Assembly (NCBI GenBank): GCA_014192425.1
Contig: BJHK01000007.1
Coordinates: forward strand, 62,001 to 126,000
Length of the DNA: 64,000 nt
Direction: 5' to 3'
From: Planctomycetia bacterium
Lineage (GTDB): Bacteria > Planctomycetota > Planctomycetia > Pirellulales > UBA1268
In this document: one piece after another, positions 13,407-28,291 of the stretch
How the letters are laid out: each line of letters opens with the position of its first letter
Numbering within the stretch: position 1 is the stretch's first letter
Notes under the pieces: model-generated
Seen by the model: only the letters and a program-made list of their open reading frames with translations
Database searches by the model: none
Told to the model about the DNA's origin: nothing
Translations under genes and position numbers: made by a program

Positions 13407-14738
13407 ATGACCGACGCCGGAATCAAGCTTTTCATTCTCGACACCAACGTCATCCTCCACGATTCCGGCTGCATCCGCAACTTCCAGGAACACGACGTCG
13501 CGATCCCGATCACCGTCCTCGAAGAGCTCGACCAGTTCAAGCGCGGCAACGAGGACATTCACTTTCAGGCCCGCGAGTTCCTGCGCCGGCTCGACGCCCT
13601 CACCGGCGACGTGCTCTCGGAGCAGGGGAGCCCGCTGGGGCCGGGGCTGGGGTCGATTCGCGTCGTCCTCGGCGGGGCGGCCGACAGCAGGCTCGCCGAC
13701 GCGTTCCTTCAAGACACGCCCGACCACCGCATCCTGCGGATCGCGCTGGCCATGGAGCGGCGCGTCGCGCCCCGGGCCGTGATCCTCGTCACCAAGGACA
13801 CGAACCTGCGCATGAAGGCCAAGTCGCTCGGCCTCCGCGCCCAGGACTACACCTCGGGGAAGGTCAAGGCCTTCGAGGGGCTGTACACCGGAAAGCGGGT
13901 CGTCGAGGGCCTCGACAGCGAGGCGATCGACCGGCTGTACGCCAAGCCGGGGGGCCTGCCGGTCGCCGACTTGCCGCTCGATCCGCCGCCGCGGGCCAAT
14001 GAGAACTTCGTCCTGCGCAACGGCAGCAAGTCGGCGCTGGCGACGTTTCGCCAGGCCGACGGCACGTTCCAGCGGATCGAGAAGCACGTCTGCTACGGGA
14101 TCACGCCGCGGAACGCGGAGCAGTCGTTCGCCCTCCGCGCCCTGACCGACGACGCCATCAAGCTCGTGACGCTGGCCGGCACGGCGGGAACTGGAAAGAC
14201 GCTCCTCGCGCTGGCGGCGGCGCTCGAGTGCCGGCAGCGATATCGGCAGATCATGCTCGCCCGGCCGGTCGTGCCCCTCTCCAACCGGGATCTCGGCTTC
14301 CTGCCGGGGGACATCGCCGACAAGCTCGACCCCTACATGCAGCCGCTGTACGACAACCTGACCGTGATCCGCCACCAGTGCGGCGACGACACCCAGGCGG
14401 CGCAGCGGATCAACGACATGCGCGAGTCGGAGAAGCTCGTGATCTCCCCGCTGGCCTACATCCGCGGCCGCAGCCTGCAGCGGATGTTCTTCATCATCGA
14501 CGAAGCCCAGAACCTCACGCCCCACGAGGTGAAGACGATCATCACGCGGGCCGGGGAGGGGACGAAGATCGTGCTCACCGGCGACATCGCCCAGATCGAC
14601 CAGCCGTATCTCGACGCCCTGTCGAACGGCCTCTCCTACCTGATCCACCGGATGGCGGGGCAGTCGCTGTATGCCCACGTCACGCTGGAGAAGGGGGAAC
14701 GGTCGGCGCTCGCCGACCTGGCCAGCGCGCTGCTCTGA
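13407..14738 (+). CDS. phoH: PhoH-family protein with N-terminal PIN domain (PhoH2 type)
   Basis: A 443-residue two-domain protein. Residues 1-150 form a PIN nuclease domain ([11 protein letters not shown] at the start, [12 protein letters not shown] later, with the acidic residues of the PIN active site). Residues 230-443 form a PhoH ATPase with Walker A GTAGTGKT at 258-265 and a DEAQ Walker B in [18 protein letters not shown]. Such PIN-PhoH fusions are RNA helicase/ribonucleases in characterised cases. The ATG at 13407 follows a GGGAGG ribosome binding site; the in-frame extension upstream overlaps the divergent gene and is rejected. Confidence 0.93.
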
Positions 14739-14793
14739 GAATCGCACGAACGACCACTTGTATCACGGGGCAATGCATCGATCCCCACCCCGC

Positions 14794-15747
14794 TCAGTGC
14801 AGCTTTTTTCGTTTCGCTTTCTTCCCGCGCGTGGCCAGTTTTTTCGCGGCCGACGGTATCCTCGCGGCCGAAGGTTTCTTCTTCGCTGTCGCCTTCTTCT
14901 TGACTGCCGCTTTCTTCTTGACTGCCGCTTTCTTCGTGGCCACGCGTGCAGCAGGCCGCGCGGGCTTTGACGGGGCCTGCGCCGGCGGCCGCCCGCCGGC
15001 GTGGTGCCGGGGTGGTTTCGAACCCTGGCCAAGATCGATGCCGAAAACCGCCGCCAGGTCGTCCGCGGCGATCGTGTGCGCGTCGTCGCCGCGAACGGCC
15101 CGCGACACCGACTCCTTCGTCGCCGCGGCCACGAGTTCCTGCTGATCGACACCCCGCAGCAGGAACAGCAGTTCCGGCTGCGTGTCGAGGCGGGCGCCGA
15201 TGCCATACAAGACCGCCGCGAGATGCTTGCAGAGAGAGGCGCCGTCGGGGCACGAGCACGTGACGTCGATCTCGCGCGGCGACGGAAACATCCCGTCGCC
15301 GGGCTTCACGAGCCGCTCCATCACGTCGTCGGCCAGCCGTCCGGCGAGCAGGTCGATGAGCGACCCGATCGACGTGGCACAGTCGGCCTTGATGGCCCGC
15401 CATTTCGGCGGCGAGAGCGGCGCGATGGCGATCGCCACGTCGTACGCCGTCGATCCGGCGACGATCGCCTCGATCCGACCGCGGGTGACGAGCAGATCGA
15501 CCACCGATCCATTGCGGGCGTAGGTGCGGCCGCGGGGCAGACGATTGGAGAAGTCGCTGTAGGTCTCAAGGTTTCGGCACCACGCCTTTCCCCAGAATGT
15601 CTTGGCGATGTCGCGGCCGGTGATCGCGACGGGCTCCGGCTGGCGGCCGAAGGCCTTGGCCCGCTTGGCGGCGCGCTTCTTCGCAGCCGCGATCCGCTCG
15701 CCGACCGGCACATGCTCAAACCAAGCGTCGAACCTGCCCCACCTCAT
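14794..15747 (-). CDS. SWIM zinc-finger protein with lysine-rich tail
   Basis: A 317-residue protein with a SWIM zinc finger: Cys164, Cys166, Cys173 and His175 in VTCSCPDGASLCKHLAAVLYG. It opens with RWGRFDAWFEHVPVGERI, as do SWIM proteins encoded beside SNF2 helicases in many bacteria, and ends in a repeated Ala/Lys tail (AAVKKKAAVKKKATAKKK) that should bind nucleic acid. The ATG at 15747 is chosen by that family start; a longer ORF upstream is probably untranslated. A deleted second copy sits at 27773-28066, 226 bp from the start of the SNF2 gene at 28292, suggesting that the SWIM and SNF2 genes were once neighbours there. Confidence 0.85.
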   Translation of the reverse strand: MRWGRFDAWFEHVPVGERIAAAKKRAAKRAKAFGRQPEPVAITGRDIAKTFWGKAWCRNLETYSDFSNRLPRGRTYARNGSVVDLLVTRGRIEAIVAGSTAYDVAIAIAPLSPPKWRAIKADCATSIGSLIDLLAGRLADDVMERLVKPGDGMFPSPREIDVTCSCPDGASLCKHLAAVLYGIGARLDTQPELLFLLRGVDQQELVAAATKESVSRAVRGDDAHTIAADDLAAVFGIDLGQGSKPPRHHAGGRPPAQAPSKPARPAARVATKKAAVKKKAAVKKKATAKKKPSAARIPSAAKKLATRGKKAKRKKLH

Positions 15748-15985
15748 CCGTGCCCTCCGCGTTGCCGAGGCCTGCTCACTCCCACGACTGCGTCGTGAAC
15801 CCGAGGTTGGTGGCGTTCTCCGATACACCACGTTTTACAAGATCCCTGGGGGACCTCGGCGACCGCCTTGCCGTCCCGCCACCAGAACCGCTGCAACTGG
15901 CTCCGCAGGTGGACCGGCGACCACGCCGAGATTGCCAGCCGTTCTCCGTGCATACCCGCGAGAGTTGGCCCGGCAGACGGCGAGC

Positions 15986-16205
15986 AGGTCACAACAAAGC
16001 CGCCCGGAGGCCGAGCCGCCCGGAGGCCGGACCCGGAGAGGCTCCGCGCCGACGCCAAAAAAACGTCACTCCAGCGAAGATGGCAACCGTTTCGGGTGCC
16101 GCTGATTGGGTCTCGGAGAACGCCGGCATCGGCCTCGCGAGCCGCCCATCAGCGCGACAATGCCTGTGGATACGGTTGCGGAAGTGCTGTTGGCCGGACT
16201 ATATT
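15986..16205 (+). repeat. Dispersed repeat R1, left border of the foreign cassette, ending in a promoter-like sequence
   Basis: About 220 bp here match 26380-26617 over the whole length, including the AGGTCACAACAAAGCCGCC start, short GGAGGCCGAGCCGCC repeats, an A tract and the conserved end. The last 30 bp read TTGCGG (16176-16181), 18 bp, TATATT (16200-16205). The KAS III gene starts 36 bp downstream. Confidence 0.8.
16176..16205 (+). promoter_or_regulatory. Promoter-like end of repeat R1
   Basis: TTGCGG-18 bp-TATATT, with TATATT a good -10 match. It points into the five-gene plus-strand operon. The same module with TATCCT occurs at 26588 and 45119. Confidence 0.5.
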
Positions 16206-16240
16206 TTTTTCCAAGTTCAGTTGCAATCGAAGGTGGCTTG

Positions 16241-17254
16241 ATGTCGATCGCGTTGCCCGGCGGCCCAGTTCGCGTTGTGATCGCCGGAACGGGAAGCTGT
16301 CTCGGTGATGCGGTTCTGTCGTCCTCCGAACTCGACACCCGTTTTTCGAAAACCGCGGGCTGGTTCGAGGCGCGAACCGGCATCGCGAGCAGGCCGGTCT
16401 GCCACAACTCCGACCAGGTCGCGATGGCGGTTGCCGCCTCCCGCCGGGCTCTGGCCGATGCGGGCGTGGAGGCTGCGCAGATTGGCCTCATGCTGTTCGC
16501 CGCCTCCGTTTCCTACCAGCCGATCCCGGCCACGGCGCCGCTCGTGCAGCGCGGACTGGGAATTGAGGACGGCGCGTGCTGCGCTTTCGATGTGAACGCC
16601 ACCTGCCTCGGATTTCTGGCCGCATGCGACGTTGCATCCTCGTTCATTGGATCAGGACGCTGCCGGCATGCGATAGTCGTTGCGTCGGAAGTCGCGTCAC
16701 GGGCGCTGCCCTGGGAGGGCGATCCCGAGACGGCCGCCCTGTTCGGCGACGGCGCAGCAGCGGCGGTGCTGTCGCCCTCTCGCGACGAAAGCGGCTTCGT
16801 TGCCTTCCGTATCGAAACAAGGCCGTCGGGCTGGGAGGATTGCCAACTCGCCTCGGGCGGCACGCGGCACGATTTTCGTCGCGATCGTGAGGCTTTTGAG
16901 GCCGGCAGCCTTTTCCGCATGGACGGCAAGGCGCTGTACCGGCACACGGCGGAGCACTTCGATGGCTTCGTCGGGCGGCTGCTGGCCGGGGCGGGATGGG
17001 CCCGCGAGGAAATCGACATCGTCGTGCCACACCAGGCGAGCGCGCTGGCGCTGCGGCACCTGTCGGCCCGCTGCGGCTTCGCGCCGGAGAAGGTCGTCGA
17101 TCTTATCTCGAACTCCGGAAACCAGGTCGCTGCCTCCTTGCCTGGTGCGTTGGACCATGCGCGCCGTACCGGACTGCTGAAACTGGGCACGAAGTGCCTG
17201 ATGCTCGGAACTGCCGCCGGCCTGTCCTTCGGCGGCGCGGCCATGGTCGCATGA
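16241..17254 (+). CDS. 3-oxoacyl-ACP synthase III (FabH/KAS III)-like condensing enzyme
   Basis: A 337-residue thiolase-fold enzyme with a complete KAS III triad: Cys122 in FDVNATCLGF, His264 in VVPHQAS, Asn294 in SNSGNQVAAS. It should join an acyl-CoA or acyl-ACP to a malonyl unit, or condense two acyl chains as OleA-type relatives do. The ATG at 16241 lies behind GAAGGTGG and directly downstream of repeat R1. The stop is one base from the next ATG. No acyl carrier protein is encoded in the cassette, so it must use the host's ACP or CoA. Base and codon use look less GC-extreme than in the flanking planctomycete genes. Whether it is a FabH duplicate or a specialised synthase cannot be told, but context favours the latter. 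Confidence 0.9.
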   Translation: MSIALPGGPVRVVIAGTGSCLGDAVLSSSELDTRFSKTAGWFEARTGIASRPVCHNSDQVAMAVAASRRALADAGVEAAQIGLMLFAASVSYQPIPATAPLVQRGLGIEDGACCAFDVNATCLGFLAACDVASSFIGSGRCRHAIVVASEVASRALPWEGDPETAALFGDGAAAAVLSPSRDESGFVAFRIETRPSGWEDCQLASGGTRHDFRRDREAFEAGSLFRMDGKALYRHTAEHFDGFVGRLLAGAGWAREEIDIVVPHQASALALRHLSARCGFAPEKVVDLISNSGNQVAASLPGALDHARRTGLLKLGTKCLMLGTAAGLSFGGAAMVA

Positions 17255-17255
17255 A

Positions 17256-18233
17256 ATGCGGGTCCTCGTCACTGGTGCAACCGGCTTCCTTGGTGGCCGG
17301 CTCAGCCGGATGCTGATGGCGGAGGGGGCCGATGTTCTCGCGACGGGCCGCGACCGGCAACCGGGCGCAGAACTCGCGGCAGCCGGCGCCCGTTTCGTGC
17401 CGGCCGACCTGTCGACCACGCGAGGGCACGCGCTGGCGGAGCTGTTCGGGCCGGTCGATGCGGTGGTGCATGCGGCGGCGCTGTCGTCTGCCTGGGGGCG
17501 GCGGGAAGCCTTCATGGCCGCAAACGTCACGGCCACCCGGAACCTGCGCGATTTTGCCTCCGCGGCGGGCGTGAAGCGTCTCGTGCTCGTTTCCACGCCG
17601 GCCGTCACCTTCTGCTTCGCCGACCGCCTTGGCATCCGCGAGAACGAGCCTTTGCCGCCGCCGGTCAACGCCTATGCGGAAACGAAGCGCATCGCAGAGG
17701 AGGAGACGCTTGCCGACACGCGGCTCGAAGCGATGGTCTTGCGTCCACGTGCCATCTACGGTCGCGGCGACAAGGCGCTGCTGCCAAGGCTCGTGCGCGC
17801 GGCCAAGTTCGGGCCGTTGCCACTTTTGCGCGGCGGACGGGCTGTGGTGAACCTCACCCATGTCGACGATTCCTGCCGGGCGATCCTCGCGGCCCTGGCC
17901 GCACCGCCGGGCCTGCGAGGCGTCTGGAACATTTCTTGCGAGGAGGAACTGCCAGTCAGGGCGATAGCGGAAAGCGCCGCCGCGCGGTCCGGCGTCGCGG
18001 TGCGCTGGCGAAGCGTTCCCTGGCCGCTGGCGCGCGAGGCGGTGCGGCTGTCGGAGTGGCGGGCGCTGCTGACGCCGGGCCGGCCGGAACCGCCTATCAC
18101 ACGCTACGGCCTGGGCCTGCTGGCCTTCAGTCAGACGCTGGACGTGAGCGCCGCGAAACGCGATCTTGGCTTCGCGGCCGCCATCGGTTTCGAGGAGGGG
18201 CTGCGGCTCACATTTGGCGAGGGAACGCCATGA
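17256..18233 (+). CDS. NAD(P)-dependent epimerase/dehydratase (extended SDR)
   Basis: A 325-residue extended short-chain dehydrogenase. The Rossmann motif is GATGFLG at 7-13, and the catalytic residues are Ser113/Thr114, Tyr140 and Lys144 (YAETK). The VLRPRAIYGRGD segment is typical of 3-beta-HSD and OleD-like reductases, which act on beta-keto or hydroxy compounds. That suits a role after the condensing enzyme: reducing the beta-keto product. It starts one base after the upstream stop, and its own stop overlaps the next start as ATGA, so translation is coupled. Confidence 0.9.
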   Translation: MRVLVTGATGFLGGRLSRMLMAEGADVLATGRDRQPGAELAAAGARFVPADLSTTRGHALAELFGPVDAVVHAAALSSAWGRREAFMAANVTATRNLRDFASAAGVKRLVLVSTPAVTFCFADRLGIRENEPLPPPVNAYAETKRIAEEETLADTRLEAMVLRPRAIYGRGDKALLPRLVRAAKFGPLPLLRGGRAVVNLTHVDDSCRAILAALAAPPGLRGVWNISCEEELPVRAIAESAAARSGVAVRWRSVPWPLAREAVRLSEWRALLTPGRPEPPITRYGLGLLAFSQTLDVSAAKRDLGFAAAIGFEEGLRLTFGEGTP

Positions 18234-19048
18234 CCGCGACGATTTTCTGGTCCTGCGCCACCGTGCCTGCACCGCAGCGGCTTGTGCTCGCCGGCGGCAT
18301 CGGCCGGGTCGATCTGGCCGTGCGCGTCGGACTCTGGCGACATCCGCTGAAGGGGCCGTTCCTGATCGACGCCGGCTACGGTGCGGCAGCCGCGACCGCC
18401 CCCGGGCGGAGTCTCGGCTTGCGGCTCTATCACCGGATGCTGGGGATCCGTCCGATTGCTGGCATGGGGCCAGTCGAGTATTTGGCGACGCTGGGTGTGC
18501 GGCCGGACGAACTGGTCGGCGTGGTTCTCACCCATTTCCATGTCGACCACATCGGCCAGCTCTGCGATTTTCCCGGCGTGCCTGTCTACGCCTCGGGCGC
18601 GGCATGGATGGCGCTTTCTGCCATGTCCGGCTTCGGCCGTAATCGCAACGGCTTCTTTGCCGAACTGATCCCAGCCGATTTCAGCAAAAGGCTGGTCGCG
18701 GTGGAGGATCTCCCGGAGGTGCATCTTCCTTTCGGTCTGGGCCGGGGTTTCGACATCAGTGGCGACGGCTCCTGCCTCGCCGTGCCATTGCCAGGCCATG
18801 CGCTCGGCCAGATTGGACTGGTTTGGCCGCAACTCCATACACCGCTGCTCTACGCCGCCGACGTGCAATGGCTGTGGCGAGCGATCGCGGAGGAAAGGCT
18901 GCCCGGCTTCCCGGCCAGCCTGCTGCCGGTCGACCGAGAGGGCGCGGCGCGTTCCATCCGCCTCGTGCGGGAGTTCGCCCGCGCGGGTGGCGGCGTGATG
19001 TTGGCACACGATCCGGAGGCGGGACCGCATCTATGGAGCAGGCCTTGA
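18230..19048 (+). CDS. Metallo-beta-lactamase-fold hydrolase
   Basis: A 272-residue binuclear metal hydrolase with the full set of ligands: HFHVDH at 102-107, His190 in PLPGHALGQ, Asp211 in LYAADVQW and His260 in VMLAHDPE. The overall layout is like lactonases of the AHL-lactonase/alkylsulfatase-unrelated MBL group, so a lactone or thioester substrate is plausible. It overlaps the upstream SDR gene by 4 bp (ATGA) and the downstream gene by 16 bp. In the cassette it could open a lactone or release a thioester-bound product; this is inference. Confidence 0.88.
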   Translation: MTATIFWSCATVPAPQRLVLAGGIGRVDLAVRVGLWRHPLKGPFLIDAGYGAAAATAPGRSLGLRLYHRMLGIRPIAGMGPVEYLATLGVRPDELVGVVLTHFHVDHIGQLCDFPGVPVYASGAAWMALSAMSGFGRNRNGFFAELIPADFSKRLVAVEDLPEVHLPFGLGRGFDISGDGSCLAVPLPGHALGQIGLVWPQLHTPLLYAADVQWLWRAIAEERLPGFPASLLPVDREGAARSIRLVREFARAGGGVMLAHDPEAGPHLWSRP

Positions 19049-20304
19049 GCCACGGCCTTGCCGATACGGCGGTAGCAGCGGCATCATTCCTGCGCACACG
19101 CTGGCGTGCCGCATGCTTGCGCACTCGTGCCGATGTCGAGGCGCACCAGAAACGCCGCATCGCGGCCTGGTTGGCCGGGCCTGTTGCCCGGGTGAAAGCG
19201 TTCCGGAAGCAAACGCCCTGCCGGCTTGGAGACATGCCGATCACAGACAAGGCCTCGGTGATGGCGAGGCTGGAGGACTACAACGCGCTCGGCCTCTCTG
19301 CCCCTGAAATCGCAGCAATGATGGCGCGCCGCGAGCACCCGCCGAGGCATCTTGTCGGCGCGAGCACGGGCACCAGCGGCAACCGATCGTGGTACGTTAT
19401 CTCACTGGCTGAGCGGCAGCTGTGGCTGGGTGCAATTCTGGCAAAGACGCTGCCACGCTTTCCCTTCGAGACGGCGCGCGTGGCGGTCGCCCTGCCGGTT
19501 GAAGCGCCGCTGTATGCGGCGGCGGATCGCGGGCGGCTGTTGTCGCTGAGATTCTTCGATCTCGGCGATGGGCTGGACACGCTGCCCCGGCGCATGGCGG
19601 CCTACGGTCCAGACACCCTGATCGCGCCCCCCTCAACGCTGCGCTACCTGGCGCACTTTCCCGACTTGCTCCGGCCGAAGCGGGTTTTCTCCGGCGCCGA
19701 AGTGCTCGATCCGATCGACCATCGGGCGATCGAGGCGGCGTTCGGTGTGAAGGTACGCGAAATCTACATGGCGGCGGAGGGGCTTCTGGGTGTTTCCTGC
19801 AGGTTCGGTACGATGCACCTCGCGGAGGACGCAATGCATTTCGAACTGCAGAAGGCGGCGGACGGGCTCGTCTCGCCGGTCATAACGGACTTCTCCCGCG
19901 GCGTGCAGATCACGGCACGCTACCGCATGAACGACTTGCTGCGGCTCGCTGAGATGCCCTGCGCCTGCGGTTCGCCTCTTCAAGCCGTGGCGGAAATCGT
20001 CGGCCGCAGCGACGACATGTTCCGCCTACCGGGCGCGGCCGGGCAGGTGGAAGTCGCACCTGGGGCAATCCGCAACGCTATTACCGGCGCCCACGCTTCC
20101 ATCAACGACTTCCGCTGCGTTCAGGATGGTCCGTCACTGGTGGGGCTGTGGGTCGATCCGCTGGCCGCATTCCAGGCCGCCAGGGCGGGGCTTGCGGCTG
20201 CTTTCGTGCGGGCCGGCTGCCGCGGCGAAATCGCGCTGCTCGAGGGCAAACCGCAGGACGGGCGCAAGCTTCGCCGGGTGTGGCGGCGCTGGAGGGAAAC
20301 GTGA
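19033..20304 (+). CDS. Adenylate-forming enzyme of the F390-synthetase/PaaK-related type
   Basis: A 423-residue protein of the short adenylate-forming (CapK/PaaK/F390 synthetase-like) group. The phosphate loop GASTGTSGNR is at 109-118, MAAEGLLG in the middle resembles the adenine-binding turn, and YRMNDLLRL carries the Asp that binds ribose. It should activate a carboxylic acid as an acyl-AMP, then pass it to CoA, an amine or a hydroxyl. The start at 19033 lies inside the end of the MBL gene, and its stop overlaps the next start (GTGA). F390-related enzymes are known mainly as uncharacterised members of biosynthetic clusters. Confidence 0.82.
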   Translation: MEQALSHGLADTAVAAASFLRTRWRAACLRTRADVEAHQKRRIAAWLAGPVARVKAFRKQTPCRLGDMPITDKASVMARLEDYNALGLSAPEIAAMMARREHPPRHLVGASTGTSGNRSWYVISLAERQLWLGAILAKTLPRFPFETARVAVALPVEAPLYAAADRGRLLSLRFFDLGDGLDTLPRRMAAYGPDTLIAPPSTLRYLAHFPDLLRPKRVFSGAEVLDPIDHRAIEAAFGVKVREIYMAAEGLLGVSCRFGTMHLAEDAMHFELQKAADGLVSPVITDFSRGVQITARYRMNDLLRLAEMPCACGSPLQAVAEIVGRSDDMFRLPGAAGQVEVAPGAIRNAITGAHASINDFRCVQDGPSLVGLWVDPLAAFQAARAGLAAAFVRAGCRGEIALLEGKPQDGRKLRRVWRRWRET

Positions 20305-21446
20305 GGACCGTCGTTCTGTCCGGCGCGCGGGCGCCGGTAGCGCTGCACTGGGCGAGGCTGTTCAAGACGGCGGGCTGGCGCGTCGTTCTGACCGACACGT
20401 TTCGCATGCCGATCTCGCGCGCCACGCGCTTCAAGGATCGCTATGTGCGCCTGCCTGGGCCGCTCGGTGATTTTGCCGCGTTCCTCACGGCGCTCCGCAG
20501 GGTGCTGGAAGAGGAGCGGCCGGCGTTCTGGATGCCGACCTGCGAGGAGGTGTTCTTTCTTGCCGCCGCCCGCGATCTGCATGGCGTCGCGCTCCCACTT
20601 TTTGCACCGCCTTTCCAGGTCCTTGCTGCAGCGCACGACAAGTTCCGCTTTTCACGGGCTGTCGCCGGCATGTCGACGGAAGCGCCGCGCTCATGGTTGG
20701 TGAAGGACGATGGCGACCTCGCACCGCTGATTCCCCGCAGCCGGGAGCTTGTCTTCAAGCCGGTCTGGTCGCGGTTCGGCGACCGCGCGCTGCGCCGGCC
20801 GGAGCCGGGCCGGATCGCCGATGCCCGCTTCCTTGCCGGCGAGCACTGGGTGGCGCAGGACTATCTGCCGGGCGTGGAGGTGAGCGCATTCGCACTGGCG
20901 CATGGCGGGCGGGTGCTGGCAATCCAGCCCTATCGCGGCCTGTTTCGCGCCAGCGCTGGCGCGGCGGTCGCCTTTGCACCCTTCGACGATCCGCAGATCG
21001 AGGCCTTCGTTGCGGAGTACGCGGCGGCGACCGGGTGGACTGGGCAGTTGTCCTTCGACTTTCGGCACGATGCGCAGGGCCGGCTGTTCGTGATCGAGTG
21101 CAATCCGCGTGCGACCAGCGGGCTGCATTTCTTTGCCGCGAGCGACGGTCTGGTCGAGGCCGCGGTCGGCGGATGCGTCGCAAGGGCGAGCAACCGTCGG
21201 CCGATGACCCTGCGCCTGGCGCTTGCGACCTACGGATTGGCAGATGCGATCACGAACCGAAAGCTGGGCGAGTGGCGGCAAGCTTGGTCGAAATGCGGCG
21301 ACATTTCTGCCTTTCCGGGCGACCGCGGCTTTCTGCCGGTACAGGTCGCAGCGCTTTTGGAGATCGCGGCGATTGCCTTGCGCCGGCGTTGCAGCCTCAA
21401 GACCGCGGCGATGGACGACACCGAATGGAACGGCCAACCGTTATAG
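20301..21446 (+). CDS. ATP-grasp ligase
   Basis: A 381-residue ATP-grasp protein. The N-terminal domain starts as a Rossmann-like fold (TVVLSGARAPVALHWARLFKTAGW). The central part has LVFKPVWSRFG for the ATP-binding Lys strand, and the late FVIECNPRATSG carries the Glu and Asn that bind Mg-ATP. ATP-grasp enzymes join a carboxylate to an amine or thiol through an acyl-phosphate. The GTG start is in a GTGA overlap with the upstream gene. Its stop runs 6 bp past the stop of the converging Rieske gene, so the two operons interlock tail to tail. Confidence 0.85.
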   Translation: MRTVVLSGARAPVALHWARLFKTAGWRVVLTDTFRMPISRATRFKDRYVRLPGPLGDFAAFLTALRRVLEEERPAFWMPTCEEVFFLAAARDLHGVALPLFAPPFQVLAAAHDKFRFSRAVAGMSTEAPRSWLVKDDGDLAPLIPRSRELVFKPVWSRFGDRALRRPEPGRIADARFLAGEHWVAQDYLPGVEVSAFALAHGGRVLAIQPYRGLFRASAGAAVAFAPFDDPQIEAFVAEYAAATGWTGQLSFDFRHDAQGRLFVIECNPRATSGLHFFAASDGLVEAAVGGCVARASNRRPMTLRLALATYGLADAITNRKLGEWRQAWSKCGDISAFPGDRGFLPVQVAALLEIAAIALRRRCSLKTAAMDDTEWNGQPL

Positions 21447-22475
21447 TTCCATCTCGGCGGTGAGCGGCCGGTCCGCCGCCAATGGCCTGCGGCCGGCGAT
21501 GATGGCGTCGATGTGCGGGCGCAGGATGTCGAGGGCCGCGACGACGCCCCTGCCGCCCGCAGCCCCGCGATTCGCCGTGCAGGCTTCGAGAATGCGCTGG
21601 TCCTGGCCGAGCGCGATGCGGAAAAAGGGCAAGAGGATCGCGGCCTTGAGCCAGCCGAAGCCGCCCTGGCGCGGGCCGGTAAGGATGGCGAAGCCGCGCA
21701 CAACGCCCGGTTTCTCCTCGCGAAGATGGAACGTGGTCATCAGGTTGAGCCGCGACGGCCCCCAGAATTCGAGTTCGGCGATGCCCGGTGCCCGGTAGCG
21801 GGCGACGCCCCTGCCGCGCTGGCCCTCGAGCAGGCGGCTCACCAGCCCGTCCTGCTTCGTCTCGCCTTGGTAGACCGCCTCCACCCAGTCTTCGCCGCCG
21901 GTGATGGTGACGCGGACGCGTTGGCGCTTCGCGCTCAGACCGCGCAGGATCAGCCGGTGGGTAAAATGGGTGTGGGTGGCGTCCAGGATATTCTCCGCGA
22001 CGTCGGCCAGCGTCGAGCGCACCTGGCTTTCCAGATACACCGAGATCGGGTCGATGCAGGAATCGGCGTGAACATAGGGCGAATGTTCGGGCTTGCCACG
22101 CGCGATGAAGACGAGGCCGCCCGCCTCGCAAGTGCTCCAGGCCGGCACCCCGTAGCCAGGCAGTTCCCCGACATGGCACGGCATGGCCGTGAGGCGGCCG
22201 GTCGCGTCGAACTGCCAGCCGTGATACGGGCACTCGATGCGGCCGTCGACCACCACACCGTCGGTGAGCGGCGCGCCGCGATGCGGACAGCGGTCGGACA
22301 GCGCCGCGACCCCGCCGCCGGTCCGGAACAGCGCCAGTGCGCGGCCCTCGTGCAAAACGCGTCGAGGCCGGCGCTTGAGCGAACGCGACAGCGCGACCGC
22401 CTGCCAGCGGCTTAGAGTTTGAAGCGGCGCATCACCGGCACCGCAATCCTCTGGATCGTTTGCTCGATTGCCCAT
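21441..22475 (-). CDS. Rieske non-heme iron oxygenase
   Basis: A 344-residue oxygenase alpha-subunit-like protein. The Rieske 2Fe-2S cluster ligands are Cys63, His65, Cys82 and His85 (DRCPHRGAPL, ECPYHGW). The mononuclear iron site follows the family pattern Asn162, Asp165, His168, His173 in ENILDATHTHFTH. It would hydroxylate, desaturate or demethylate an organic substrate using electrons from a partner reductase, which is not in this window. It starts 64 bp inside the upstream GNAT-like gene, so the two are probably made from one mRNA; a later start is possible. Confidence 0.9.
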   Translation of the reverse strand: MGNRANDPEDCGAGDAPLQTLSRWQAVALSRSLKRRPRRVLHEGRALALFRTGGGVAALSDRCPHRGAPLTDGVVVDGRIECPYHGWQFDATGRLTAMPCHVGELPGYGVPAWSTCEAGGLVFIARGKPEHSPYVHADSCIDPISVYLESQVRSTLADVAENILDATHTHFTHRLILRGLSAKRQRVRVTITGGEDWVEAVYQGETKQDGLVSRLLEGQRGRGVARYRAPGIAELEFWGPSRLNLMTTFHLREEKPGVVRGFAILTGPRQGGFGWLKAAILLPFFRIALGQDQRILEACTANRGAAGGRGVVAALDILRPHIDAIIAGRRPLAADRPLTAEMEL

Positions 22476-23533
22476 GTCGCCGCTCGGGCACCGAAGGGAA
22501 GGTGCGCACTGTAGAATGCGGCGTACTCAATCGCCGCCTCTGCATGCCGGTTGCGCTTGAAACTTGCCGCTCCAGCACTCAGATTGTACGACATCCGTCG
22601 CTCCCGCGCCAGAAACATGCCAAGTGCGACGAGTCGCCGGTACAGGCCGTGCTCCTGCGGCAGCGTCGTGTCATAGCCGACCATCGGCGCGGTCAGCACC
22701 CCGCCGATGGCAAACAAGCCAATGGCCCCAGCAAGCCTGCCGTCGGCGGCGCGCACGCCGTGGAACTCGATCAGGCCGGTGTTGTGCGCGCGGCGCATAA
22801 ACTCTGCCGTGTATTGCGGGTTTAGCGGGGTATATTTCTCTAGGTAGAGCATGGCGTAGAGTTCGGCGATGCGAGCGAAATCTCCCTCACCGATGTCCTG
22901 CGGGCCGCAAACCGGATAGTCCTGGCAACGCATCATCGCCATGTCGCGGGCAAGATCGGCGCCCCGCTCGGGCAGTGTTTCCCTGCAATCGTAAACATAG
23001 ACCTGGCGCGAGGCGATCAGCCGGTAGCCCGCCGCGCGGAAGGCTTCGAGCAGGGGCGCGTCCATGCGGTCGTTGAAGGAACGCCAGACGATCACCCGCG
23101 TCGGCCAGCGATTCAGGCATTGCTGGGTGATGTCGCGGACAGCCTCGGCGGGCAGCCCGGGCCAGACATTGGTGGAGAGCAGCCAGTTGTTTGGTTGCGC
23201 CTGCCGGTCGGCGCGGGTGGCGGCGACGAGCAGGGAGGAGGCCCGCACAAGCACCCGCAGCGCGCGCTGCGTCAGCGAGCCGGGGGCGAAATTCCGCAAC
23301 TCCTCCAGGGCATAGTCGGTGAAGGCGGCTGACGGGCAGCAGATGTAGCAGGTGCGCGACTCTCCGTCGTTGAGCGTCACGGGGATACGCACGCCGCCCG
23401 CCTCGACGAAGGTGAGGCTGGTGTCGAGATTTGCGATCAGGGCGTTCGTCGGAAGTCCGGCGAAGGTTGCTTCCAGGGCGCGGGCGGCGTCGCCCGCGCT
23501 TCGTCTCGGAGGGTGTCTGGCGGCTGTGCTCAA
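22412..23533 (-). CDS. GNAT-like acyltransferase protein
   Basis: A 373-residue protein without a strong named motif. The C-terminal half, about 200-340, follows the acetyltransferase/FemAB-like (GNAT superfamily) plan, with a substrate-handling N-terminal half. The helix LYRRLVALGMFLARERRMSYNLSAGAASFKRNR resembles the end of FemAB/PelG-like aminoacyl or acyl transferases. The start is a TTG at 23533 whose TTGA overlaps the stop of a truncated upstream gene, a sign of translational coupling and the reason for choosing it. An N-acylation step in the cassette pathway is a reasonable guess. Family assignment is moderate only. Confidence 0.6.
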   Translation of the reverse strand: MSTAARHPPRRSAGDAARALEATFAGLPTNALIANLDTSLTFVEAGGVRIPVTLNDGESRTCYICCPSAAFTDYALEELRNFAPGSLTQRALRVLVRASSLLVAATRADRQAQPNNWLLSTNVWPGLPAEAVRDITQQCLNRWPTRVIVWRSFNDRMDAPLLEAFRAAGYRLIASRQVYVYDCRETLPERGADLARDMAMMRCQDYPVCGPQDIGEGDFARIAELYAMLYLEKYTPLNPQYTAEFMRRAHNTGLIEFHGVRAADGRLAGAIGLFAIGGVLTAPMVGYDTTLPQEHGLYRRLVALGMFLARERRMSYNLSAGAASFKRNRHAEAAIEYAAFYSAHLPFGARAATWAIEQTIQRIAVPVMRRFKL

Positions 23534-23805
23534 GCCTTGATGGCCGGAAGGCCGGCCCCGATTGTGCCTTGGAACGTCTTCACATCGTCCGAGGTGATCA
23601 TCAGCGGCGACGACTCGAGCGCGATTATGACGCGCCAGGATTGCCCGGCAAATGGCACGGCCGCAAGTGTTTCTAAGCCGCTCTGGGCGGTGCCGGACGC
23701 AAGCCGCTGAAGCTGGGACCGGCGGACCGGGCGACGGTCTGCGCCGAGGCGAGAAAATCGCCCGCGCAGCGGGTCTTGAGCGGCGCTTCCGCGTTGCGAC
23801 GTTTC
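23530..23805 (-). pseudogene. 5'-truncated gene at the right edge of the foreign cassette
   Basis: A minus-strand reading frame without a recognisable start ends in a TGA at 23530-23532 that overlaps the TTG start of the GNAT-like gene. The tail includes QSWRVIIALESSPLMITSDD and TFQGTIGAGLPAIKA, which reads like a genuine protein C-terminus. Going upstream, the frame runs at about 23.81 kb into sequence shared with the repeat at 45 kb, so the gene's 5' part was probably lost when the cassette joined the repeat. I do not recognise the family. Confidence 0.5.
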
Positions 23806-23913
23806 GGCGTTCAGGGAAATCGCCTCCGGACTCCCAGACCGCTCTCCCCGAGGCTCACGAGTGGCTCATCTGCCCGGAAACCGTTGCGGATGTGCCATTG
23901 GCCGGACTGTCCG
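23806..23913 (+). repeat. Dispersed repeat R2, right border of the foreign cassette
   Basis: About 105 bp align with 45043-45148, including GGCTCACGAGT and the conserved end TTGCGG (23884-23889) followed by ATTGGCCGGAC. It lies in the same orientation as R1 on the other side of the cassette. The -10 position here is degenerate (TGTCCG). Confidence 0.7.
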
Positions 23914-24191
23914 TCGCCGGTGCGCGTCGTAGACACTGGGCGGGTAAGCCGCACGTTGCGACCGGTACACATCTGCATTCGCGGTCTAACGCTGCGCGGC
24001 AGAGGTGAAATCTCGGCTACTTGCACCAGCAACGTGGCATGGAGATATTGGTCCACTTTGCCAAGCGGTCCATGAACCACGCGGCGGCTCATCAAAGTGA
24101 ACCAGCACCGGCACGTGCGATTCTTGCGTAGCGCGGGCGATTCCCCTTAATCTCTCTCCGATTCACGCATTCACTGCGTCCAGGGACGAAA
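23914..24191. other. Non-coding stretch before the HExxH/HEAT gene
   Basis: No supported gene. It contains an A/T-richer segment and an antisense 94-codon frame without family resemblance. The 24192 gene may have its promoter here, but no clear -35/-10 pair was found. Confidence 0.4.
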
Positions 24192-25517
24192 ATGCCTTTC
24201 TGGTTCAAGCCGCGCTGTCCGCTGGATACCGGCGAGAAGGCCTGGACCGAATATCGCCTGCGCTGGTTAGTCGACCGCTTCGGGCTCGATCTCATCAATC
24301 GCGTCGAGTTTCTTCTGCCGGAAGATTTGTGGGCGAAACCGTGGAAAGGGACCGAAGCCGAAGCGCAAGAGATCCTCGACCGAGTCTGCGCTCACATGGA
24401 AACGCCGCGCGAGCGACTGAGCTTGGAGTTTGTCGACGACGACCAGTTGCCCAACGCCGTTGGGCATTACGATTATTCCGATTGGCGGCCGACGATTCGG
24501 ATCGCTCGGTCGCAGTTGGAAGACCCCGTCGCGCTGTCGGCGACGCTCGCGCATGAGGTGGCGCATGACGTTTTGCTTGCCGGGAAGTATCAGACCGGCA
24601 ATGAAGCGGATCTGGAGGACGTGACTGATTTACTCCCGACGATCTACGGGGCGGGACTTTTTGCCGCCAACGCCACGGTCCGGTCTACCAACTGGCGGAG
24701 CGGCAATTGGGAAGGGTGGAACATCTCGAAGCAAGGCTACTTGCCGTCGCGAACATTCGGCTACGCCTTCGCCCTGTTGACGCTGTTTCGCGACGAGTGT
24801 GATCCGCCGTGGGCCGAGCGCCTTCGGCCCGACGCCGCGGAGACGTTCCGGCTTGGGTTGAAGTTCTTGCGGGGAGGCGGCGATACGCTGTTTCATCCGG
24901 CAAGCTATCGATCGGATCGCGGTGATCCGACTCCGGGCGAGTTGCTTCAGCAACTGCAGCACGCCTCGCCGACGTTTCGCCTCGCCGCGCTTTGGGACGT
25001 CGCAGAACCAGATGCCGTGACCGTCGACGCGGTGGTCGATTGTTTGGGAGACCGCGACCCGCACGTCGCCGCCGCGGCGGGCCACCGCTTGGCAGAATTA
25101 GACTTCATTCATGAGCGTGGTCGTGACGAACTGGTGCGACGGCTCGAATCGCCGATCGAAATTGTGCGGCTCGGCGTCATACACGCCGTCGGCCGATTGC
25201 GATTGAGTCCGGGCGAATCGCTGGGCATTCTCAAGCGGCTCCTGTTCCACGAGAGTCGCGCGGTATCGCTGGCCGCGGTGATAGCCGTTGGACGATTCGG
25301 AGAAGAGGCGTCGGCTCTGGCGCCGCAACTGGTCAAGGCCTTAGAGCGGGCGAACGTGCGTCGCGATCCAGACGCAATCGAGGCCGCGGCCAAAGCCATT
25401 TGGAACCTCGTTCCCATTCCGGATGACCTGCTGCGAGACGTGTACGCCGGCGGGGATCGCGAGTTGTATCAGCTCGCGCGATCGGCGCTGCGGAGCACGC
25501 GAATCGCGGGGAGATAA
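24192..25517 (+). CDS. Protein with a zinc-protease-like HExxH motif and C-terminal HEAT repeats, function unknown
   Basis: A 441-residue cytoplasmic-looking protein. The N-terminal half contains LSATLAHEVAHDVLL (about 115-129), an HEVAH sequence like the zinc site of metallopeptidases, with TGNEADLEDVTDLLPTIYG after it possibly giving the third ligand. The C-terminal half, about 260-435, is a set of HEAT-like helical repeats (VDCLGDRDPHVAAAAGHRLAEL, LAAVIAVGRFGEEASALAPQLVKAL). Codon use is less GC-rich than in either the planctomycete genes or the cassette to the left, hinting at separate acquisition, perhaps from another planctomycete. A strong hairpin follows the stop. I do not know a characterised homologue. 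Confidence 0.7.
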   Translation: MPFWFKPRCPLDTGEKAWTEYRLRWLVDRFGLDLINRVEFLLPEDLWAKPWKGTEAEAQEILDRVCAHMETPRERLSLEFVDDDQLPNAVGHYDYSDWRPTIRIARSQLEDPVALSATLAHEVAHDVLLAGKYQTGNEADLEDVTDLLPTIYGAGLFAANATVRSTNWRSGNWEGWNISKQGYLPSRTFGYAFALLTLFRDECDPPWAERLRPDAAETFRLGLKFLRGGGDTLFHPASYRSDRGDPTPGELLQQLQHASPTFRLAALWDVAEPDAVTVDAVVDCLGDRDPHVAAAAGHRLAELDFIHERGRDELVRRLESPIEIVRLGVIHAVGRLRLSPGESLGILKRLLFHESRAVSLAAVIAVGRFGEEASALAPQLVKALERANVRRDPDAIEAAAKAIWNLVPIPDDLLRDVYAGGDRELYQLARSALRSTRIAGR

Positions 25518-25519
25518 AG

Positions 25520-25590
25520 GTGCCAGCCACCAAATCTGGAGAAGTCAGGCAACTGCCTTGCGCAGATCGCCCAGGTTTGGTGGCTGGCAC
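25520..25590 (+). repeat. REP-like long hairpin after the HExxH gene
   Basis: GTGCCAGCCACCAAATCTGG (25520-25539) and CCAGGTTTGGTGGCTGGCAC (25571-25590) are inverted copies with one mismatch, forming a 20-bp stem with a 31-base loop. It starts a few bases after the stop at 25517 and ends 18 bp before the stop of the converging Uma2 gene. It may terminate transcription both ways, or be a REP/RAYT-type mobile repeat; a related GGTGGCTGACACC occurs near 42.3 kb. Confidence 0.75.
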
Positions 25591-25608
25591 GAATGGTTGC
25601 GCCGAAAA

Positions 25609-26205
25609 TCATCCCACCGGCGGCAGGAGTTGAGCGAGCTCGACGGCCACCCGATTGCCGGCTGCCTCGACTACATGGGCACACGCGACCGCTTCGTGCG
25701 GCTCGACGCCCACGTCTTCGGCGTAGCCGCCGCCAACGGGCTGGCGAAATACGCGGATCTGCCGGGTGGACGCGTCGATCACCCACACCTCCGGGATCCC
25801 ATGCCGGGCGTACAGCGGCACCTTCGTGCCGAGGTCGTAGGCCAGGCTCGTGTCGGCAACCTCGATCACGAGCAGCGCATCGGCGGGCCCCGGGAGCGAC
25901 GTCGTGTAAAAGTCGGCTCGGGGCCGGAGGATCGTGATGTCGGGCTCAGGCTCGCTGACGTCGTCGAGACGGAGCGGGTTTTGGCACCACACGACCGCCG
26001 TCGCCCCGAGCCGCAGGCTGAAATGCGATGCCAGTCGCGCGACGATCGCCGCATGCAGGACTCCGATCGGCGACATGTCGATGATCTCCCCCTCGATGAG
26101 CTCCACCCGGTCTGCGGGCCCGAGGATGCCCGTCTCGCCCATGCGATGAAACGCGTCCACCGAAATCAGGTGGCGGGAGGGCGCGGCGGAAGGAATCGTG
26201 GCCAT
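25609..26205 (-). CDS. Uma2-family (DUF820) putative endonuclease
   Basis: A 198-residue protein with the PD-(D/E)XK-like core of the Uma2 family: VELIEGEIIDMSPIG near residue 34, SEPEPDITILRP with the metal-binding Asp, LLVIEVADTS with Glu, and KVPLYARHGIPEVWVIDA with Lys. The family is very numerous in planctomycetes and cyanobacteria, often near mobile DNA; its true role is unsettled. It is transcribed toward the hairpin at 25520-25590 and divergently from the small-protein/nucleotidyltransferase pair. Confidence 0.88.
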   Translation of the reverse strand: MATIPSAAPSRHLISVDAFHRMGETGILGPADRVELIEGEIIDMSPIGVLHAAIVARLASHFSLRLGATAVVWCQNPLRLDDVSEPEPDITILRPRADFYTTSLPGPADALLVIEVADTSLAYDLGTKVPLYARHGIPEVWVIDASTRQIRVFRQPVGGGYAEDVGVEPHEAVACAHVVEAAGNRVAVELAQLLPPVG

Positions 26206-26379
26206 GGCGGCGGAATCCTCGGCGGAGTCGGCTCAGCATCACACAGAAAAGAGTATACAGAAGAACACCGCAGCGTCAATCTTCAGCTGGGGGCCAATGA
26301 CGTCGTCGAACGCTCGCCGGTTGAGCCCGACGAACTGCCGGCGATCGACATCCACAGCCTCTGACCGGTGCCGGACGCG

Positions 26380-26617
26380 AGGTCACAACAAAGCCGCCTG
26401 GAGGCCGAGCCGCCTGGAGGCCGAGCCGCCTGGAGGCCGGACTCGAAGAGACTCCGCGCCGACGCCAAAAAAAAACGCCACTCCAGGGAGGAGGGCAGCC
26501 GTTCCGGGTGCCGCTGATTGGGGGCCGGAAAACGCCGGCACCAGCCTCATGAGCCGCCCATCCGCTCGAAAATGGCTGCGGACGTGTTTGCGGAAGTGCC
26601 ATTGGCCGGACTATCCT
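26380..26617 (+). repeat. Dispersed repeat R3 with promoter-like end
   Basis: Matches R1 (15986-16205) over its length, with extra GGAGGCCGAGCCGCCT units. It ends in TTGCGG (26588-26593), 18 bp, TATCCT (26612-26617), and the next gene starts at 26626. The sequence just before (GCGATCGACATCCACAGCC) recurs near 48.29 kb. Confidence 0.8.
26588..26617 (+). promoter_or_regulatory. Promoter-like end of repeat R3
   Basis: TTGCGG-18 bp-TATCCT ends 8 bp before the ATG at 26626. If used, transcription would start at about the start codon and give a leaderless mRNA. Confidence 0.45.
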
Positions 26618-26625
26618 TTTCGAAC

Positions 26626-26886
26626 ATGAGCGAAGCCGAATCGCCGGACACGCAGCCGGGTGCCCTCCGAGCCGCAGCGACCGGCTGCGACCGATCCACA
26701 TGGCCGGTTCGGGTCGGTCGGGTCGGCGAGCCGGAGCCCAAGGCCGACGTGGCCCACCTCACCCCCTCCCAGCGCGTCAGCCTCTGCTGGGAGGTGACGA
26801 AACAGGCCTGGGCCCTCACCGGAGCGCCGCTGGATGAATCCGCATTTTGTCGCGATTCTGAGCGCCTTTCGCGACGAGGGAGTTGA
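26626..26886 (+). CDS. Small protein upstream of a nucleotidyltransferase
   Basis: An 86-residue protein. After a variable N-terminus it has the block LTPSQRVSLCWEVTKQAWAL followed by DESAFCRDSERLSRR. I recognise this as the pattern of short uncharacterised proteins (TPxxRxxxxWxLTxxAW) encoded just before MNT-like nucleotidyltransferases. It overlaps the next gene by 53 bp in another frame, so the two are co-transcribed. The pair may be a toxin-antitoxin-like module; this is inference. Confidence 0.6.
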   Translation: MSEAESPDTQPGALRAAATGCDRSTWPVRVGRVGEPEPKADVAHLTPSQRVSLCWEVTKQAWALTGAPLDESAFCRDSERLSRRGS

Positions 26887-27268
26887 GTTCCTCGTCATCG
26901 GCGCCCATGCCCTCGCCGTTCACGGCCATGTGCGTGCCACGCTCGACATCGATCTCTGGGTGCGGCCCACTCCGGAAAACGCCGCCCGCACCTGGCAGGC
27001 GCTGCGTCGCTTCCGGGCCCCCCTCGCGAAGATGAAGCTCGAGGACTTTGCCGAACGCGAGGTTCTCTACCAGATCGGCCTGCCCCCAAGCCGCATCGAC
27101 ATCATGACGAGTGTCACGGGGCTCGACTTCGACGCTGCCTGGCCCAACAGGGTCGTGGCGGTCTTCGGCGACGTCGCAGCTCCCGTGCTCGGCCTCGACG
27201 ACATGCGCACCGCCAAGCGCGCGGCGGGCCGGCTCAAGGATCTCGCGGACCTCGAGGAACTCGGCTGA
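26834..27268 (+). CDS. Nucleotidyltransferase-fold protein (AbiEii/MNT-like)
   Basis: A 144-residue protein of the DNA-polymerase-beta-like nucleotidyltransferase superfamily. VEFLVIGAHALAVHGHVRATLDIDLWV has the Gly-Ala turn and the DxD pair of acidic residues that bind metal. The C-terminal GLDDMRTAKRAAGRLKDLADLEEL resembles the end of small AbiEii- and DUF6036-type proteins, where the KxxxxRxKDxxDL block is conserved. Such proteins can act as toxins that modify tRNA or as antitoxin-side AMP-transferases. It overlaps the 86-residue gene upstream. Confidence 0.75.
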   Translation: MNPHFVAILSAFRDEGVEFLVIGAHALAVHGHVRATLDIDLWVRPTPENAARTWQALRRFRAPLAKMKLEDFAEREVLYQIGLPPSRIDIMTSVTGLDFDAAWPNRVVAVFGDVAAPVLGLDDMRTAKRAAGRLKDLADLEELG

Positions 27269-27337
27269 CCACGGTTCCCGTACGCGGTCCGCCCCGTCCC
27301 AGGCTCGCCGCCGCGGCACGCCCCCGGCTGCATTCCC

Positions 27338-27476
27338 ATGAGCACGCTCCAGCACCTCGCCGAGAAGGAGCTCGTGAAGCCCCCACGCTGGCTCCCGGCC
27401 AACGTGATGTACGAGACGATCATGGGGAGCGTCGCCTCCGGCGTGTCGGGCGACACGAGCGACATGGACGTCTGCT
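27338..27476 (+). pseudogene. N-terminal fragment of an RlaP-like nucleotidyltransferase
   Basis: From an ATG at 27338 the frame encodes MSTLQHLAEKELVKPPRWLP, then YETIMGSVASGVSGDTSDMDV. That is the start of the predicted nucleotidyltransferases of the RlaP family, with the GSxxxG...SDxD active-site pattern. After DMDV the sequence no longer follows the family and a different fragment begins, so the gene is broken. Confidence 0.6.
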
Positions 27477-27723
27477 GCTGGAGGCCGCCCCGGATGCCGG
27501 ATGTGCCACGCTCGCCGGCATGCTCGACCGGCTCTTGCGGGCCAACGTGCACTACGGATACGCCCGCGATCTCGGGCAGCTGGGCCCGATCGAACTGGGG
27601 CCGCTGCCCGGTCCGCCCTGAACAGCCTGGGCGGCGTACGAGCGGTCCACGGCCACCGGCCGGCTGCTGGGGAGCCTGAAACCGCTCGCCATCGTGCCGC
27701 CCTCGTCCACCGGCGTCGGTTGA
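27476..27723 (+). pseudogene. Fragment resembling the C-terminus of a GH3 auxin-responsive-type protein
   Basis: Two frames joined by a shift near 27620 read LDRLLRANVHYGYARDLGQL and then AWAAYERSTATGRLLGSLKP up to a TGA at 27721-27723. The arrangement resembles the last part of bacterial GH3-family acyl-adenylating proteins. The assignment is tentative; that it is a broken coding fragment is clearer. Confidence 0.4.
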
Positions 27724-27772
27724 CCCGCGTTGCCCGTCATCGAGCCGACAGGCACCGCTGACGAGCACCACG

Positions 27773-28066
27773 CGTGCAGCAGGTCGTGCGTGCTTTGACG
27801 GGGCCTTCGTCGGCGGCCGAAGGCCTTGGCCCGCTTGGCGGCGCGGTTCTTCGCGGCCGCGATCCGCTCGCCGACCAACACATGCTCGAACCAAGCGTCG
27901 AACCTGCCCCGCCGCATCCGTGCCCCCCGCGTTGCCGAGACCTGCTCACTCCCACGACTTGGTCGTGAACCCGAGATTCGCGGCGTTTTCCGCCACCCCA
28001 CGTTTTACCTGATCCCTGGGGGACCTCGGCGGCCGTCTTGCCGTCCCGCCAACAGAACTGCTGCAA
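27773..28066 (-). pseudogene. Internally deleted copy of the SWIM zinc-finger gene
   Basis: 27816-28066 matches 15637-15900 (the SWIM gene's 5' part and leader) at about 90 percent by eye. 27773-27815 matches 14943-14985, near its 3' end. About 650 bp including the zinc finger are missing at a junction of shared GGCGGCCG. Only the first 35 codons of the protein remain in frame (RRGRFDAWFEHVLVGERIAA). Confidence 0.8.
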
Positions 28067-28147
28067 CAGGAGCAGATTCGGTCCGGAGCTACCTTCTGAC
28101 TGGCGACGAGCCCACCAGGCGAAGGGGATGCCGCACCATCCGCTAGC

Positions 28148-28243
28148 CTATTGACCGATGAAAAGTAAATTCATGAGCAGCAGCGACAAATCCCCGTCGC
28201 GATGCGACTGCAGACGATGAATGGTTTATTCATGCCTCAATAG
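28148..28243 (+). repeat. 96-bp palindromic repeat E1
   Basis: Bounded by CTATTGAccgATGAA and the near-inverse TTCATgccTCAATAG, and about 90 percent identical to E2 at 33054-33149. The inner part also folds back on itself (AATTCATGAG against GATGAATGG, and CGTCGCGATGCGAC). Looks like a miniature mobile element. Confidence 0.8.
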
Positions 28244-28291
28244 TGGCACCGCTGGACGACGTTGGTCCGGCCTGATCATCCCTCATCCCTG

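Follow-up and report, generated by a model that had tools for sequence, protein, structure and literature searches.

A seven-gene cassette of apparently foreign origin in a planctomycete, and a possible head-group-modular lipid

The window analyzed herein, a 64,000-nucleotide stretch of a Planctomycetia bacterium (assembly GCA_014192425.1, contig BJHK01000007.1, positions 62,001 to 126,000), carries at 16241-23533 a compact cassette of seven intact genes, five on the plus strand and two convergent with them on the minus strand. The first four, which encode a beta-ketoacyl synthase III-type enzyme (KASIII), a short-chain dehydrogenase/reductase (SDR), a metallo-beta-lactamase (MBL)-fold hydrolase, and an adenylate-forming enzyme of the ANL superfamily, are referred to as the core. 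The genes are as follows:

16241-17254, plus strand: KASIII, a FabH-like condensing enzyme of 337 residues (PF08541/PF08545)
17256-18233, plus strand: extended SDR of 325 residues (PF01370), with OleD (2-alkyl-3-oxoalkanoate reductase) as its nearest curated model
18230-19048, plus strand: MBL-fold hydrolase of 272 residues (PF00753), weakly similar to N-acylhomoserine lactone lactonases
19033-20304, plus strand: ANL adenylate-forming enzyme of the F390/PaaK type, resembling TIGR02304 ("F390 synthetase-related")
20301-21446, plus strand: ATP-grasp ligase of 381 residues, GTG start, PRK06849-like, with a fold like those of PurK, PylC, and L-amino-acid ligase
21441-22475, minus strand: Rieske non-haem iron oxygenase of 344 residues (PF00355)
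22412-23533, minus strand: GNAT-like (tandem-GNAT) protein of 373 residues with an aminoacyltransferase fold, TTG start (PF13480, weak)

The junctions between these genes are as tight as a first-pass annotation of this DNA had described: a single base pair separates the KASIII and SDR genes, the SDR and MBL genes overlap at an ATGA, the ATP-grasp gene begins with a 4-bp overlap (GTGA, with the GTG at 20301), and the convergent stops of the ATP-grasp and Rieske genes overlap by 6 bp (21441-21446). The 16-bp overlap claimed between the MBL and ANL genes holds if the latter starts at ATG 19033; a start at TTG 19045 would give a 4-bp overlap with the MBL stop, as in relatives. The minus-strand unit had been counted as two to three genes, of which two are recognizable and a third is not supported, and the gene that had been regarded as cut is whole, in that the GNAT-like gene, which has no ATG, begins with the TTG at 23533 and matches its homologues over the full length of its 373 residues. 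The cassette contains no carrier protein, as had been noted; the host genome holds seven PP-binding matches, the best of them in a 107-residue frame, a typical size for an acyl carrier protein.

Homologous loci were gathered by plasmid tblastn together with an ANL-alignment scan of 84,980 species genomes, and the 86 loci obtained include 79 with the complete core. All seven genes are present in 36 of these 79, and the exact gene order and orientation of the window recur in 12 loci from Rhizobium, Asticcacaulis, Bradyrhizobium, and Rhodobacterales. Two other layouts are also frequent: in one, the GNAT-like and Rieske genes are followed by a convergent ATP-grasp gene, and in the other the ANL gene lies on the opposite strand. 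The seven genes are therefore a conserved unit and not a chance set, which agrees with the single cassette first proposed, and homologues are not scattered across unrelated neighborhoods. Sequence distances for the three genes outside the core rise and fall with the core distances (Mantel r 0.80-0.89, with 0 of 2000 permutations as high), indicating that the cassette genes travel together. The KASIII, SDR, and MBL genes adjoin the ANL gene, as they do around TIGR02304 members in alphaproteobacteria, and the core also occurs in E. coli, Burkholderia, Bacillota, and Fusobacterium. Given that the ATP-grasp genes within the core operons of Paenibacillus and Pontibacillus (365 and 288 bits) and the GNAT-like gene of Paenibacillus (385 bits) are true homologues, the association of these genes with the core is old.

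Compared with this wider TIGR02304 neighborhood, the window stands out as the only planctomycete member seen, and its ANL protein falls slightly under the curated cut-off (234.3 bits against TIGR02304, its best model, 18 bits short of the required 251.9), whereas the syntenic gene of Rhizobium freirei scores 274.8 bits. The cassette is rare in alphaproteobacteria, being found at a strict threshold in one of 289 genomes (the centre genome of the sample), and TIGR02304 exceeds its cut-off in 5 of 299 Pseudomonadota, the centre genome counted among them. No paper on the cassette or on the TIGR02304 family was found in a literature search that omitted most subscription journals. A type II fatty acid synthesis cluster of D. 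psychrophila is described as containing a ligase annotated as F390 synthetase, and the description makes no mention of a cassette of the window type (PMC2649909).

Beside the core lies a slot whose content is exchangeable. Across the 79 complete-core loci it is occupied by an ATP-grasp gene in 41, a DUF3419 gene in 16, a GT1-type glycosyltransferase gene (nearly always paired with a DedA/VTT protein) in 12, and a sulfotransferase gene in 5, with none of these in the remaining 5; the ATP-grasp gene never co-occurs with any of the other three (0/79), and the GNAT-like and Rieske genes are found with either ATP-grasp or DUF3419. DUF3419 is presumably the family that includes BtaA, of the betaine-lipid type. 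Beyond this set of 79, further enzymes accompany the core in particular lineages: in E. coli, genes for PAP2_3, an OlsE-like fatty acid hydroxylase, and a fatty acid desaturase come after it, in Burkholderia an OlsE-like hydroxylase gene does, and a GT21 gene (ceramide-glucosyltransferase type) accompanies the core in Fusobacterium and at locus L043. In one Paracoccus a sulfotransferase gene lies beside the core with sulfate transporters adjoining. The core is thus fixed and its neighboring slot swaps, with 10 changes of slot state needed on the core tree. These swaps are most simply read as different polar heads placed on one lipid scaffold at a hydroxyl or comparable acceptor group.

Residue conservation was read across 50-87 family rows, and the catalytic residues of the KASIII, SDR, MBL, and Rieske proteins, which had been reported as present, are there and are at least 93% conserved within their families: C122/H264/N294 of KASIII (80 rows), Y140/K144 of the SDR, the H102xH104xD106H107 motif with H190 and D211 of the MBL protein, and D165/H168/H173 of the D-x2-H-x4-H iron site in the Rieske protein, which also has the CxH..CxxH cluster. 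In the ATP-grasp protein, K153, E266, and N268 are invariant, and the fold and conserved ATP site are confirmed. The best model for this protein, PRK06849, is matched at 270.5 bits against a cut-off of 406; the predicted structure of the protein (pLDDT 92.9) aligns in Foldseek with PurK, PylC, and 3vot (TM 0.53-0.64) and also matches L-amino-acid ligases. The AlphaFold model of the GNAT-like protein (pLDDT 93.6) has a tandem-GNAT fold, and its best Foldseek matches are the soluble domains of MprF, A-PGS, L-PGS, and FemX (E about 1e-7 to 1e-5), with aminoacyl-tRNA-dependent peptide synthases matched as well. Enzymes of the MprF/A-PGS/L-PGS/FemX type transfer amino acids to lipids or peptides. 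On the strength of the predicted fold, the "GNAT-like" gene product is better described as having an MprF/FemX-like aminoacyltransferase fold, although it lacks a membrane flippase domain and its tRNA donor is putative. Taken together, the modeled folds of the GNAT-like and ATP-grasp proteins suggest that the head group of the window variant is probably an amino acid.

In light of these observations, the cassette is interpreted as a horizontally acquired operon for a head-group-modular lipid, with a rough probability of 0.5. The best guess for the product of the window is an oxidized aminolipid built on the modular core. The order of steps (condensation, reduction, release, adenylation, head attachment, and oxygenation) is inferred from the enzyme classes. 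KASIII would join an acyl thioester to a malonyl thioester, on a carrier protein of the host, to form a beta-ketoacyl thioester; the OleD-like SDR would reduce the keto group to a hydroxyl, the MBL hydrolase would release the acid, and the ANL enzyme would adenylate the carboxylate and hand the acyl group to a nucleophile, giving a hydroxylated acyl scaffold. In the window variant, the attachment of one or more amino acids, for which an amide or ester linkage is plausible, would then fall to the ATP-grasp ligase and to the MprF/FemX-like aminoacyltransferase, and the Rieske oxygenase would hydroxylate the product. With ornithine-lipid (Ols) and betaine-lipid (Bta) synthesis the cassette would share amino-acid-derived polar heads, and OlsE-like and DUF3419/BtaA-like enzymes occur in sister cassettes; the scaffold of the cassette, however, would come from a dedicated KASIII-SDR-MBL-ANL core rather than from OlsBA or diacylglycerol.

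More tentatively, and with somewhat less confidence than the operon reading itself, the core may define an undescribed, phylum-spanning class of ceramide-like bacterial lipids in which one hydroxylated scaffold carries many alternative heads (amino acid, homoserine-type, sugar, sulfate, or phospho-head), with one version in a subset of E. coli and another in the planctomycete of the window. If so, a lipid pathway lies behind the generic labels "F390 synthetase-related", "CoF synthetase", "GNAT", and "ATP-grasp", extending over alphaproteobacteria from soils and the sea, some 12% of the complete genomes of E. coli, and also Bacillota and Fusobacterium; natural head-group swaps would allow the chemistry to be read by comparing one core across slots, and the curated family TIGR02304 would become directly testable by lipidomics.

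Several points weigh against the reading as a head-group-modular lipid operon. GT1 enzymes, sulfotransferases, and oxygenases also act in the tailoring of small secondary metabolites, so that a lipid is not proved; release by the MBL enzyme and renewed activation by the ANL enzyme would seem a futile pair of steps if the acceptor did not require an acyl-AMP; the mutual exclusion of ATP-grasp was counted on related loci; the similarity of the GNAT-like protein to MprF/FemX is only moderate (TM 0.4-0.5, identity 11-15%); and the best fold matches of the ATP-grasp protein include PurK, which performs no amino-acid ligation.

One alternative, which the first-pass annotation had brought up as a resemblance to OleA/OleD/OleC with an MBL hydrolase in the place of OleB, is an Ole-type route, whereby KASIII, SDR, and ANL would act as OleA, OleD, and OleC to give a 2-alkyl-3-hydroxy acid and a beta-lactone, which the MBL enzyme would open before decoration by the slot enzymes. 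As a resemblance this stands: a KASIII-type enzyme, an OleD-type SDR, and an adenylating enzyme, as OleC also is, occur in a row, OleD (NF042422) is the best curated NCBIfam model for the SDR (183 bits), and the MBL protein is weakly lactonase-like. Nevertheless, the SDR score is far under the OleD cut-off of 580, KASIII prefers FabH-type models (261, 230, and 203 bits) to PRK09258, the group used as a proxy for OleA (118 bits, where 285 are required), and the cassette has no OleB alpha/beta-hydrolase, an MBL fold occupying that position, as well as additional ATP-grasp, Rieske, and aminoacyltransferase-fold genes. No OleC-named model is among the ANL matches, for which TIGR02304 is nearest, in a library not checked for holding an OleC model. 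As the OleA, OleD, and OleB signatures are all wanting, the cassette is, by these comparisons, not an Ole cluster, and a product of the Ole type is unlikely, though the cassette may work in part like the Ole pathway.

A small diffusible signal or antibiotic resembling PQS (2-alkyl-4-quinolone), made by KASIII, ANL, and an MBL thioesterase (compare PqsD, PqsA, and PqsE) and then oxidized or conjugated, is likewise an improbable product. The three enzyme classes are, as a matter of general knowledge, common to PQS synthesis by PqsA-E, the rare, patchy, and accessory distribution resembles that of secondary metabolites, and some cores adjoin TetR regulators. The likeness is nonetheless confined to enzyme classes: genes for an aromatic starter, including an anthranilate supply, are absent; there is a single KASIII instead of a PqsBC pair, and the ANL protein matches TIGR02304 and no anthranilate ligase model; an SDR and lipid head-group enzymes are added; and most of the slot enzymes belong to lipid head-group or lipid-tailoring classes (OlsE-like hydroxylase, fatty acid desaturase, PAP2_3, DUF3419, GT21, and MprF-like). 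A catabolic or detoxifying cluster conserved by happenstance is very improbable, for while Rieske oxygenases, MBL proteins, and CoA-ligase-like enzymes are generally known to be frequent in catabolism, KASIII, ATP-grasp, and the aminoacyltransferase fold are anabolic, and no recurring beta-oxidation or ring-cleavage genes were seen beside the core. Rather than to the acyl-derived amide or lactone originally envisaged, the evidence leads to exchangeable polar heads on a lipid scaffold. The initial interpretation is partly supported overall, its main idea being right in outline; the present analysis adds the modularity of the slot, the breadth of the distribution, and the MprF-like fold.

The foreign source that had been proposed for the cassette agrees with its distribution and phylogeny. 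Only one of 294 planctomycete genomes, that of the window itself, contains the cassette; no orthologue was found in 98 relatives, which gave weak PaaK-like matches only, and in a tree of the four concatenated core proteins the window groups, at an SH-aLRT of 99, with Rhizobium and Asticcacaulis cassettes of the seven-gene form, its own branch being long (0.69). The best per-gene identities are 52-61%, mostly to a few loci (L025, L027, L030, L031, and L034). Given this sole planctomycete carrier and the tree placement, the cassette is judged to have been acquired horizontally, apparently from an alphaproteobacterial donor or from an unsampled carrier of the same cassette lineage. Neither by phylogeny nor by codon use do the genes fall among planctomycete orthologues. 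Codon use was compared with five neighboring frames of the window: third-position GC content is 0.77-0.83 in the cassette and 0.87-0.92 in three of the five neighbors, with values of 0.82 and 0.72 in the remaining two, such that composition alone is weak evidence of foreignness.

Copies of a dispersed host repeat lie on both sides of the cassette:

15998-16208, plus strand: dispersed repeat of the host at the left end of the cassette, with 25 genome matches, ending 33 bp before the first gene
26392-26620, plus strand: second direct copy of the same repeat, to the right of the cassette

These copies suggest that the site is recombination-prone. They also bear on whether the cassette is alphaproteobacterial DNA contaminating the planctomycete assembly, with no transfer involved, a scenario that would suit an assembly of 70 contigs and a cassette seen in no relative. 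It is highly unlikely, as the cassette is interior to a long contig, the abutting host repeat, which recurs to the right, counts against contamination, and best identities of only 52-61% leave no sampled alphaproteobacterium as the source. The repeat is about 190 bp long, and several of its 25 genome matches are at contig ends; it has no Rfam match.

An Rfam scan of 14000-29500 returned no RNA element at gathering score, terminators around the cassette are no commoner than in shuffles, and the two promoter-like sites predicted are not informative. To the right of the GNAT-like gene, a distant blastn of 23534-24191 against plasmids gave no match that would indicate a transposase or another known element; the window has no tRNA with which integration could be associated.

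Some of the homologous loci merit comment. The E. coli core sits between narI and the tRNA-Tyr/purU region (L022, 5167-12048; L122, 6001-12882) and is present in 674 of 5426 complete genomes (about 12%), including LF82, 83972, and many urinary isolates; no description of this locus was found in the literature searched. A locus labeled Candidatus Sulfopaludibacter (Acidobacteriota; L074) branches within the Hyphomonas group, shares the flanking genes of that group, and is probably a misassigned contig. Likewise, a locus labeled Roseateles (UNVERIFIED_ORG; L023, NZ_CP084753.1) groups with Shinella cassettes and shares its flanks with Shinella zoogloeoides, and its organism label is probably wrong.

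The host genome has one more ANL-like gene, which is PaaK/DVU1553-like (L115; G000:C20:63904-64572) and lies near two copies of the dispersed repeat; other core genes were not seen in the stretch around it. Next to the cassette, the minus-strand gene at 14794-15831 encodes what by inspection looks like a SWIM zinc-finger protein. Part of this gene is repeated at 27552-28070 (90% over 259 nt), which leaves related sequence on both flanks. The right-hand neighbor at 24192-25517, a HEAT-like repeat protein by eye, is the one with a third-position GC content of 0.72, below the cassette and the other neighbors, and may also be foreign.

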